DNA of 57,196 bases from contig QYZZ01000065.1 of NCBI GenBank assembly GCA_003838145.1, forward strand, positions 1 to 57,196. Reading direction: 5' to 3'. The notes under the pieces were generated by a model. It made no database searches. It was given only the letters and a program-made list of their open reading frames with translations, and had not been told where the DNA came from. This document shows positions 9,425 through 33,782 of this stretch, in pieces. Position numbers and translations under genes: made by a program. Every line of letters starts with the position of its first letter. Position 1 is the first letter of the stretch. This DNA is from Tindallia sp. MSAO_Bac2 (GTDB lineage: Bacteria > Bacillota > Clostridia > Peptostreptococcales > Tindalliaceae).

Positions 9425-10081
9425 TTATTTTGTTTTGCTCAGAACAATTGCTTTCAGATTTTTTGATCCCATAACTGCACCGGTGCCACTTCTGCCGTTT
9501 GCTCTATTAGTCATCGTTATTATACAGGAATACTTAATCATATTTTCACCCGCTGGTCCAATCTGTGCCATTTCCAGCTCGTTTTCCTGTAATTGTTCTT
9601 TAATAATTCTTTCTGATTCTCCCGTAACCTTTCCCCAAATAGCATGAGCGTCCCTAATTTCATAGTGGCTGGAATTCATATAAAAATAAACCGGTTTTTT
9701 TGCTTTACCTCTAAAAATCATTGCATATAGTCCATACTTTTTTAAGACATACGGGAAAAAGCTTTCAACTTTGCTATCTCCAACGGAAGCATTGAGGGGA
9801 CTTTTAGTTGTAATAACCAACTGTTCTTCCGGCTTTTTTGCTGCATTACGGTTGTTGTAGGTAAAAATCAGCAGGTTCGAGGATGACAATGGATCGGCTC
9901 CTGAATCCATTTCCTGCAATAAAAGATACATTCCGAAAGCAGAACCATCCGGATACAGGTTGATAATTTCTTTTGACAATATGCGTTCTTCAACAGTTTC
10001 ATCACTCAAATTGATGTCAAGTATTTTTATTTCCTGATATCCTTCCATTCCTTCAAACCTCCCAGTTATTAAAGCCTTCAA
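9425..10081 (-). CDS. Stand-alone aldehyde:ferredoxin oxidoreductase N-terminal domain
   Basis: 218 aa matching only the N-terminal domain of tungsten aldehyde:ferredoxin oxidoreductases, which are usually about 600 aa. Recognisable are TTKSPLNASVGDSK, GLYAMIFRGKAKKPVYF and the cofactor-loop motif NGRSGTGAVMGSKNLKAI near the C-terminus, where full-length enzymes continue into the domains holding the [4Fe-4S] cysteines. Here a TAA stop follows directly, and no remnant of the other domains is found downstream. It may be a genuine single-domain protein or the trimmed remnant of an AOR gene; the frame is clean, favouring the former. The start is TTG at 10081, with AGGAG 6 bases before it. Confidence 0.75.
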   Translation of the reverse strand: MKALITGRFEGMEGYQEIKILDINLSDETVEERILSKEIINLYPDGSAFGMYLLLQEMDSGADPLSSSNLLIFTYNNRNAAKKPEEQLVITTKSPLNASVGDSKVESFFPYVLKKYGLYAMIFRGKAKKPVYFYMNSSHYEIRDAHAIWGKVTGESERIIKEQLQENELEMAQIGPAGENMIKYSCIITMTNRANGRSGTGAVMGSKNLKAIVLSKTK

Positions 10082-10225: not shown

Positions 10226-10267
10226 TACGCTAACAATAGCATCATTTGTCAGAAAGGTATGATACCA

Positions 10268-10579
10268 ATGAAAGAATTAAAGACTAAGTTAATGAGTGTT
10301 GGAGCAGTAGGCGGTGCTGCGCTGTCAGCCTTTTGCTGAGTAATGCCCATACTATTTGTGTCGCTCGGGTTAGGCGGCCTCGGTTTATCTTATGCTTCAG
10401 TACTGGCACCCTACCAAAATATTTTTCAATTCTTTGCCGTAGGGATGATCATATGGGCTCATTATCGCATGGATCATCATTCATTGAAAAAAAGTACTCA
10501 AATTTTTATATGGGGTGCCACAATCATTATTATTAGTGTCACTTTGCTGCCTTTCGCTTTAAGGTTGTTCCTTATTTAA
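10268..10579 (+). CDS. MerT-like membrane selenoprotein (UGA = Sec24 predicted)
   Basis: The plus-strand frame from ATG 10268 to TAA 10577-10579 encodes 103 residues if the single in-frame TGA at 10337-10339 is read as selenocysteine. The sequence around it is LSAFC-U-VMPILFVSLGLGG, which matches the first membrane helix of MerT mercuric transporters, where a vicinal Cys-Cys followed by xxP accepts Hg(II) near residues 24-25. Three membrane helices are predicted (about 9-40, 47-66, 78-101). MerT's second cysteine pair in the cytosolic loop is absent; the loop has HH instead. AAAGG precedes the ATG. A SECIS-like hairpin starts 20 nt after the TGA. Translation from the internal ATG at 10343 would delete the whole metal site, and that ATG has no good ribosome site. 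Role inferred: soft-metal or metalloid transport, or thiol/selenol redox. The Sec machinery (selA, selB, selC) is not in the window. Confidence 0.78.
10360..10378 (+). promoter_or_regulatory. Bacterial SECIS-like hairpin
   Basis: Stem GTCGCT (10360-10365) pairs with GGCGGC (10373-10378), 6 bp with two G-U pairs; the 7-base loop CGGGTTA has G at its second position. It begins 20 nt after the UGA codon, with the loop G 28 nt after it, within the spacing and loop pattern known for bacterial selenocysteine insertion elements. A competing fold (TAATGCCC with GGGTTA) exists. Confidence 0.6.
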
Positions 10580-11448
10580 ACCTTTCTTAATTCTGACATA
10601 TTAATGGCAGCAAGTGTACAATGCAGTGCATCATTGTTATTAGTGCAGACCACCAGGTCTGCGCTTTCTTTTAAAGATTGGGTAGCATTCTCCACAGCTA
10701 TTGCCGTTCCAGCATATTTCAGCATACTTAGGTCGTTATCATGATCTCCGATAGCAACAATTTTTTCCCGATTAATTCCAAGATCTCCAGCCAGCTTTTT
10801 CAATGCGTTTCCTTTTGTTGCATTACGGTCTAGTATCTCCATATTATCATTGCCTGATCGCGTAACATAAATATCAGGCACTTTTTTTAACTGCCGTCTT
10901 TTACATTCAAGCTGTTTCATATTGGAAGAGATAACAATTAAGTTTGTGAGTTGATACCCTTCTTCAACAAATTTACGGAAGTCAACTACCTGATATGCAG
11001 ATGAAAACCAGGATTCTATAACAGCGCGCCTTAACGATACAAATCTGTTTTTTTTACTTTTTCTTTCAAAGCGATACAGGTTTCCAAGTCGGCTCCATCT
11101 GCTTTTGATATAGGTATGCTCTTCAGCCGAGCCATGAAAATACAAAACTGGTTTCTCCGAAAGTATGTTGAGTACTTGATTAAGAGAATTCCTGCTGATG
11201 TAGTGAGTATACAGAATATCTTTTTGGGGGTTTCTTATGACCGCGCCATTATTAGTGATCAGCCAGCATGGCAACTTAATCTGATTCAGATATGGTTCAA
11301 CGGTATGAAAGGGTCTGCCTGTACATAAAACAACTTCCATACCATTTTCATAAGCTTTTTTCAAAGCCATAATATTTTTATTTGATAAGCTTTTGCGATC
11401 ATCCAGCAGTGTTCCATCCATATCCGTTGCTAATAATTTATATTTCAA
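10576..11448 (-). CDS. Cof-type HAD-superfamily phosphatase
   Basis: 290 aa, HAD IIB (Cof) sugar-phosphate or nucleotide phosphatase type. Motif I is TDMDGTLLDD with the nucleophilic aspartate, motif II is in CTGRPF, and motif IV is GDHDNDLSML; a K preceding (NATKGNALKKL) supplies motif III. The cap domain lies between about 90 and 200. The start is TTG at 11448 behind AAGGAG. Its stop overlaps the stop of the convergent MerT-like gene (10576-10579). The substrate cannot be told from sequence. Confidence 0.9.
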   Translation of the reverse strand: MKYKLLATDMDGTLLDDRKSLSNKNIMALKKAYENGMEVVLCTGRPFHTVEPYLNQIKLPCWLITNNGAVIRNPQKDILYTHYISRNSLNQVLNILSEKPVLYFHGSAEEHTYIKSRWSRLGNLYRFERKSKKNRFVSLRRAVIESWFSSAYQVVDFRKFVEEGYQLTNLIVISSNMKQLECKRRQLKKVPDIYVTRSGNDNMEILDRNATKGNALKKLAGDLGINREKIVAIGDHDNDLSMLKYAGTAIAVENATQSLKESADLVVCTNNNDALHCTLAAINMSELRKV

Positions 11449-33616: not shown

Positions 33617-33656
33617 CCTGCGCAAAAGTCAGTGCCTTGTATACTGACACATTCTC

Positions 33657-33766
33657 CACTTCTTTCATCCAGACTGTAACTGTCGGCTCCGGAATTACAC
33701 CAGATCAACCATAATTGGCTCGCGGGCTTTACCGCCGGTAAGGAATTTCACCTGTCCCTGAAGTTA
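33657..33766 (-). promoter_or_regulatory. FMN riboswitch (RFN element)
   Basis: The conserved RFN core is present on the minus strand: AGGGACAGGTGAAATTCC at the 5' side, ACCGGCGGTAAAGCCCGCGA, GATCTGGTGTAATTCC, GGAGCCGACAGTTACAGTC and the closing GGATGAAAGAAG. It senses flavin mononucleotide and controls the rib operon downstream. Confidence 0.96.
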
Positions 33767-33782
33767 TTTATTTATCTATTTT

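Follow-up and report, generated by a model that had tools for sequence, protein, structure and literature searches.

The window, by which we mean the whole stretch of 57,196 nucleotides analysed here, comes from a draft genome of 2.48 Mb that is 97.5% complete. At positions 10268 to 10579 of its forward strand it carries a merT-like gene, predicted to encode a selenoprotein of 103 residues with selenocysteine (Sec) at residue 24. When translated with TGA read as Sec (U), the 103 codons begin MKELKTKLM, run through AFCUVMPILF and end with LRLFLI before a TAA stop; the only internal TGA is that of residue 24. The product matches the PF02411 (MerT) model, and the frame is kept in relatives. A ribosome-binding site, AAAGG, lies at 10253 to 10257 (forward strand), 10 nt 5' of the ATG, and GAAAGG is present at the equivalent site in three other genomes of the genus (L012, L013 and L014). 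Translation and sequence thus confirmed what an earlier note had read from the letters: a single frame with a ribosome site before ATG 10268, one TGA and a TAA stop. The in-frame UGA (10337 to 10339, forward strand), conserved as UGA or replaced by Cys in homologues, adjoins Cys23, so that it does fall, as had been proposed, on the second residue of a MerT-type vicinal pair of the first transmembrane segment (TM1), here Cys23-Sec24. The earlier note had also predicted that standard gene callers would begin at an internal ATG and report a 78-aa protein; the mechanical list of open reading frames gives exactly that, from ATG 10343. Ordinary gene calling would shorten such genes in the same way. 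Note that a terminator-like hairpin, which is a consensus match only (1 found, 0.3 expected), is present 3' of the gene at 10642 to 10665 (forward strand).

The gene is flanked by two genes on the reverse strand. The divergent neighbour (9425 to 10081) encodes a protein of 218 aa that consists of just the N-terminal domain of an aldehyde ferredoxin oxidoreductase (AFOR; PF02730, E 1.2e-52), and the convergent neighbour (10576 to 11448) encodes a Cof-type HAD hydrolase (PF08282, E 1.1e-60) whose stop overlaps the end of the selenoprotein gene. The order in the window is AFOR N-terminal domain, selenoprotein, Cof-type HAD hydrolase, ferritin, aspartokinase (identified by reading) and nitroreductase, and much of it recurs in six examined genomes of the family (L107 to L112), in which proteins related to the AFOR-domain and HAD neighbours occupy the same places. 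The AFOR-domain gene appears to be a syntenic neighbour, which does not imply that it acts jointly with the selenoprotein. A related protein of 207-215 aa is present in three other genomes of the genus, and one of 630-661 aa in three other genomes of the family; the lone AFOR gene is perhaps a shortened tungsten-enzyme gene that has been kept. No mer genes (MerP, MerR or MerA) were seen beside the window gene. A plasmid origin of the gene was not supported either, since the search of 72,556 plasmid records returned one weak match (30% identity, E 6e-4). Elsewhere in the window (33653 to 33769, reverse strand), an FMN riboswitch of ordinary kind lies upstream of apparent riboflavin genes.

The homologues for which the earlier note had advised a search, those that carry Cys or TGA at this site, do exist. 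Among 98 genomes, the source genome included, 26 contained a match (E <= 1e-3), giving 28 matches in total. Exactly one in-frame TGA, always in this column, was present in 26 of these 28 homologues, and the remaining two carry Cys-Cys at the pair (L025 and L029). Identity among these matches falls to 28%. The UGA is therefore very stable in the family, which makes the Sec more than a stray replacement. A phylum-wide sample of 398 genomes yielded 35 matches in 28 genomes (E <= 1e-6): 32 with one TGA, one with one TAA and two without a stop. The column was read in the window's own copy and in 27 others of these 32 (four copies were left out), and the TGA occupied it in all 27. In addition, named genomes were scanned with a DNA pattern. 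Of the 37 stretches recovered, 33 were family members once their translations had been read, and the other four (L073, L078, L092 and L102) were dropped as chance matches. Note that the pattern demanded TGA, and is uninformative on how often Cys replaces it. The members came from records titled Tindallia, Anoxynatronum, Natronincola, Alkaliphilus, Desulfobulbaceae, other Desulfobacterota, Nitrospirae and Chloroflexi. UGA copies thus occur beyond the nearest relatives, both in other members of the phylum and in records of Desulfobulbaceae, Nitrospirota and Chloroflexota. One record titled Anaerolineales (L071) may be mis-binned, because, in the stretch read, its protein shows no difference from that of the Desulfobulbaceae record L070. 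A single-protein scan of genome contigs found no relative, probably because a TGA codon is invisible to patterns that contain Cys, and the remainder of the protein diverges.

Two relatives carry other in-frame stops. The Cys-Cys homologue L029 (G083:C36) has a TAG elsewhere in its frame, and its genome also has a TGA copy; the relative at G308:C49:35089-35373 has an in-frame TAA, and that genome also has TGA copies. Both are either decayed copies or sequence errors. For the window gene itself a base error at the UGA seems unlikely, because the same UGA is found in independent genomes.

The source genome has the machinery that reading the UGA as Sec would need. The presence of selA, selB, selC and selD, which the earlier note had wished to see checked, was established for selA and selC with curated models (SelA, E 1.9e-152; tRNA-Sec, 74.1 bits with a gathering score of 47) and for selB and selD by reading open reading frames. 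The selB, selA and selD genes lie side by side in L039, adjoining the tRNA-Sec gene. Moreover, the genome encodes GrdA in a gene with one in-frame TGA. In the phylum-wide sample, a SelA match was present in each of the 26 genomes that hold a TGA copy, compared to 272 of the 398 genomes overall (hypergeometric 3.4e-5, with kinship ignored).

Just 3' of the UGA we found a SECIS-like hairpin at 10360 to 10378 (forward strand), in which 10360-10365 pairs with 10373-10378 around the loop 10366-10372. It has six pairs, two of them U-G, and a 7-nt loop, CGGGUUA, with G at loop position 2; the gap between the UGA and the loop is 26 nt. The bacterial SECIS model, as given in the available part of a published review (PMC13188914), has a loop of 3-9 nt, a stem of 4-16 bp, a G among the first two loop bases, a distance of 16-37 nt from the UGA and a minimum free energy at or below -7.5. 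In stem, loop, loop G and distance the window hairpin lies within this model. Its energy is -6.1 kcal/mol for the core and -7.4 kcal/mol when the structure is enforced, just short of the model's value. When left to fold freely, the window sequence forms a different structure of -8.1 kcal/mol (z +1.39), and 186 of 200 shuffled sequences folded at least as well.

Across the family, a simple bacterial-SECIS score averaged 13.3 over 60 distinct sequences running from the UGA to +60, compared to 7.9 when the same proteins were codon-resampled (the largest of 200 being 9.0); this set is without seven TGA loci that the motif filter missed (L051, L058, L060, L061, L063, L068 and L069). Covariation was analysed in 32 sequences that, in our judgement, have a common stem register, out of 47 distinct sequences from outside Desulfobacterota and Nitrospirota. 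In these 32, 85.5% of the pair cells can pair, compared to 37-54% once the partner is shifted by one to three columns, and 17 cells are changed on both sides, compared to 4.2 in shuffles, none of which (0 of 500) scored as high. Neither the pairs with a double change (3 compared to 1.6, with 50 of 500 shuffles as high) nor the further pair types (9 compared to 8.9, with 340 of 500 shuffles as high) stand out. These are two of the five covariation measures computed; the kinship of the sequences stays in all these tests. Without guidance, RNAalifold arrived at this stem core too, and covariation made up a small part of the value (-0.45 of -7.63). Two of the covarying pairs link third codon positions, one with G-C in 18 sequences and A-U in 7, the other with G-C in 11 and A-U in 8; this covariation, judging by these columns, is more than constraint on the protein alone explains. 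Desulfobulbaceae-type sequences have a hairpin whose loop is mostly about 5 nt closer to the UGA. As expected of a bacterial SECIS, the putative hairpin covaries at synonymous positions; the window's own copy folds weakly.

These results bear on whether the UGA could be a true stop, so that the locus would either encode two products, a leader of 23 aa and then a 78-aa protein of its own starting at ATG 10343, or be a pseudogene in decay. This would agree with the plain list of open reading frames, which yields just the 78-aa frame, and with a window hairpin that folds no better than shuffled sequences. It is difficult to reconcile with a UGA kept over so large a divergence, with its replacement by Cys in two homologues, and with a genome that has the Sec genes and a second UGA-containing selenoprotein gene. 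Reinitiation at ATG 10343 was rejected because this ATG is not kept: M is present at the position in just two of 28 aligned sequences, the window and L012. The pseudogene was rejected because there is selection on both sides of the UGA. In all 11 close pairs compared, which share sequences among them, the synonymous proportion exceeded the non-synonymous one both 5' (20-23 codons) and 3' (70 codons) of the UGA; for the window and L012 the values were 0.95 and 0.08 before the UGA, and 0.57 and 0.12 after it. Reading of the UGA as Trp was rejected as well, there being no Trp in the column among the 28 sequences. We consider a true stop very improbable. The window gene almost certainly encodes a real selenoprotein, into which Sec would be inserted at the UGA by the cell's SelA, SelB, SelC and SelD with the help of the hairpin just 3' of it.

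As regards its family, the resemblance to MerT that the earlier note had seen was upheld by profile matches. The window protein alone matches PF02411 with E 7.6e-5 (23.2 bits) and NF033560 (NCBIfam merT_RC607) with E 3e-10 (40.3 bits), in both cases under the cut-off (32.9 and 130 bits, respectively). Each of these models matches all 33 sequences of alignment A3, the window included (E <= 1e-3). Columns 23 and 24 are invariant in these 33 sequences when the UGA is written as C, and the vicinal TM1 pair is present as Cys-Sec. In the available part of PMC5715351, the TM1 pair of Tn21 MerT (Cys24/Cys25) carries Hg(II), and a second pair (Cys76/Cys82) hands it towards MerA. The window protein shares with the NF033560-type and Tn21/Tn501 MerT proteins a length of about 100 aa, the TM1 vicinal pair at a nearly equal residue number and a Pro three residues on. 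It differs from Tn21 and RC607 MerT in having Sec for the second Cys, no pair of the Cys76/Cys82 type and no mer operon. The second pair is absent, with no Cys besides the TM1 pair in 27 of the 28 homologues, the window included; in a wider set, 59 of 64 proteins have a sole Cys and the other five carry one or two extra. In alignment A1 (27 sequences) His65 is almost invariant; Desulfobacterota-type members lack it. AlphaFold, given the window protein and 32 relatives, placed helices at residues 3-32, 36-45, 47-70 and 75-102, with low confidence (pLDDT 65.8, pTM 0.36). Taken together, these matches make it highly probable that the protein is a homologue of MerT, presumably a small inner-membrane protein that probably has three helices.

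Two subtypes were apparent among 64 distinct proteins: 54 share the vicinal CU pair of the window protein, and the other 10 have CxxU. All ten CxxU genes have a rhodanese-domain gene directly downstream, its match beginning 256-333 nt past the UGA, compared to none of the 54 CU genes within 1400 nt. Eight CU loci have less than 1400 nt of downstream sequence, and five of these less than 700 (L072, L084, L087, L090 and L100). Three loci were examined after this set had been made: L038 and L060 (CU, no rhodanese within 1400 nt) and L069 (CxxU, with rhodanese, and nearly identical to L138). Their addition brings the counts to 11 of 11 and 0 of 56. The CxxU loci with rhodanese are L134, L135, L138, L141, L142, L143, L145, L146, L056 and L064, together with L069; of the ten rhodanese genes, eight were scanned, each with PF00581 confirmed. 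By reading, the rhodanese protein appears to carry a lipoprotein-like signal. At the CU locus L136 a related rhodanese gene lies about 4 kb away. Note that the CxxU members are kin; the subtype tree needs four changes, the CxxU type may have a single origin, and one genome (G148) carries both types. This strict CxxU-rhodanese link is a concrete lead to a selenium-dependent sulfur or redox pathway of the cell envelope.

Other neighbours were seen at some loci. Near CxxU genes these are CcmH (L134, L135, L141 and L143), a CcmH-like TPR protein (L141), Lgt (L134, L135 and L145) and a thioredoxin-thioredoxin reductase fusion (L134 and L135); for each kind, a single protein was scanned. Lgt is also present near two CU genes (L096 and L132). 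Near CU genes they are ArsR (L132 and L133), MerR (L137), a CopZ-type protein (L133), an HMA P-type ATPase (L132), and a MerA-like gene that combines HMA with a pyridine-nucleotide reductase (L096).

The suggestion that this is a selenoprotein of a new type was not borne out. In the part available to us, a 2022 review (PMC9312934) tabulates a 'Putative mercuric transport protein' of pfam02411 (MerT), ABB16073.1, as a prokaryotic selenoprotein family and credits it to Zhang and Gladyshev 2007. As far as its accessible text goes, a 2026 review (PMC13188914) also lists Sec-MerT, gives its motif as C/SxxU, and says of most transporter selenoproteins that they have been linked to resistance to metals or metalloids. 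NCBIfam has a model for a MerT/CopZ fusion-like heavy metal transport selenoprotein (NF045683, MerT_CopZ_Se). Among the entries seen in the GOS survey are a Sec 'Mercuric transport protein MerP' and a 'putative mercuric transport protein', and the excerpt available of a 2006 survey gives 11 selenoproteins for Alkaliphilus metalliredigenes, with no MerT among them. The window gene is thus a well-supported addition to an already recorded Sec-MerT family. It resembles the tabulated ABB16073.1 in being a MerT-family protein with a predicted Sec; the CU pair sets it apart from the C/SxxU motif of the table as far as that is available, although ABB16073.1 may itself be CU. It also resembles NF045683, whose N-terminal part is MerT-like and carries Sec, and 30 of the 33 sequences of A3 match this model. 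However, the model has 235 positions and the window protein consists of just a membrane part of 103 aa, with a match (E 1.3e-4, 21.6 bits) far below the cut-off of 375 bits. The SAO selenoproteins SaoL, SaoC, SaoB, SaoP, SaoT and SaoX (Haft and Gwadz 2023, as listed in the available part of PMC13188914) are likewise selenoproteins, proposed there for organometal chemistry, but SaoT is listed as thioredoxin-like rather than MerT-like, and the six matches that the window protein has in NCBIfam (E <= 1) include no SAO family. Among the matches listed by our search of the open-access literature, no paper dealt with the Sec-MerT of the window's clade, and none with selenoproteins of Tindallia. Possibly less known are the CU-only pair, the absence of a mer operon and of a MerA over the cut-off, and the CxxU-rhodanese link.

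What the protein does is a matter of how the Cys23-Sec24 pair, its only thiol/selenol site, is used. We propose a mode of action like that of the TM1 cysteines in MerT, in which the pair would bind a soft, thiophilic metal ion within the membrane (candidates being Hg(II), Cu(I), Ag(I) and similar species) and pass it across. The Sec may give tighter or faster binding of soft metals in a cell that uses selenium. That the protein is a soft-metal carrier, of whichever substrate and direction of transport, is the reading we lean towards, and it would agree with the ArsR, MerR, CopZ-type, HMA P-type ATPase and MerA-like genes beside some distant CU relatives. The absence of a second MerT pair, of mer neighbours and of a MerA over the cut-off speaks against it, as does the CxxU subgroup, whose rhodanese partner suggests redox work. 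Overall, a MerT-family selenoprotein that carries soft metals is probably the best explanation. If a lone Cys-Sec pair does move a soft metal, this would be a small case, easy to test, in which selenium serves metal transport and not catalysis.

A narrower version, in which the protein takes up Hg(II) to feed a mercuric reductase, would draw on the resemblance to MerT and on the Chloroflexi relative L096, located about 2.8 kb from the HMA and pyridine-nucleotide reductase gene. At the window locus, however, no MerP, MerR or MerA was seen, and nothing in the genome passes the curated cut-off for MerA, the best match reaching 392.6 bits compared to 454. The two best matches to the MerA model look like lipoamide dehydrogenases, each adjoining an E2 acyltransferase gene. 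The genome has four HMA matches (two in a frame of 835 residues, one in a frame of 75 and one in a frame of 724), and these frames appear, by reading, to encode P-type ATPases and a copper chaperone. Because there is no MerA over the cut-off, classical reduction of Hg(II) is unlikely in this organism; a mercury-resistance operon at the locus was rejected on this ground and for want of mer neighbours, and a role in feeding a mercuric reductase is improbable. More serious is the alternative that the same selenoprotein is no metal carrier, and that its Cys-Sec pair serves as a transmembrane thiol/selenol redox device or a sulfur/selenium relay, working by selenenylsulfide, persulfide or thiol exchange. 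The rhodanese gene of all ten distinct CxxU relatives, the CcmH, CcmH-type TPR, Lgt and thioredoxin-fusion genes in some of their neighbourhoods, the lack of a mer partner at the window locus and that of a second Cys pair for metal hand-off would all fit such a relay. But the window protein is of the CU type, for which no such rhodanese was found within 1400 nt downstream, Lgt is shared with CU genes, and several CU relatives have metal-type neighbours. We therefore regard the relay as possible for the window protein, and less probable than the soft-metal carrier.

A bolder reading joins both functions. Sec-MerT proteins would then be no parts of mercury resistance but would form two house-keeping classes: a stand-alone CU carrier, to which the window gene would belong, for an endogenous soft metal or for reduced sulfur or selenium species, and a CxxU protein that, with the rhodanese-domain lipoprotein, would make up a selenium-dependent transmembrane relay of sulfane sulfur or thiol electrons. 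Taken jointly, these claims are speculative, and we give them somewhat less weight than the relay alone. Finally, in six Desulfobacterota and Nitrospirota loci (L075, L076, L097, L098, L099 and L101) the Sec-MerT gene is followed by a related gene, whose product contains DUF5714 in L097, the one scanned.
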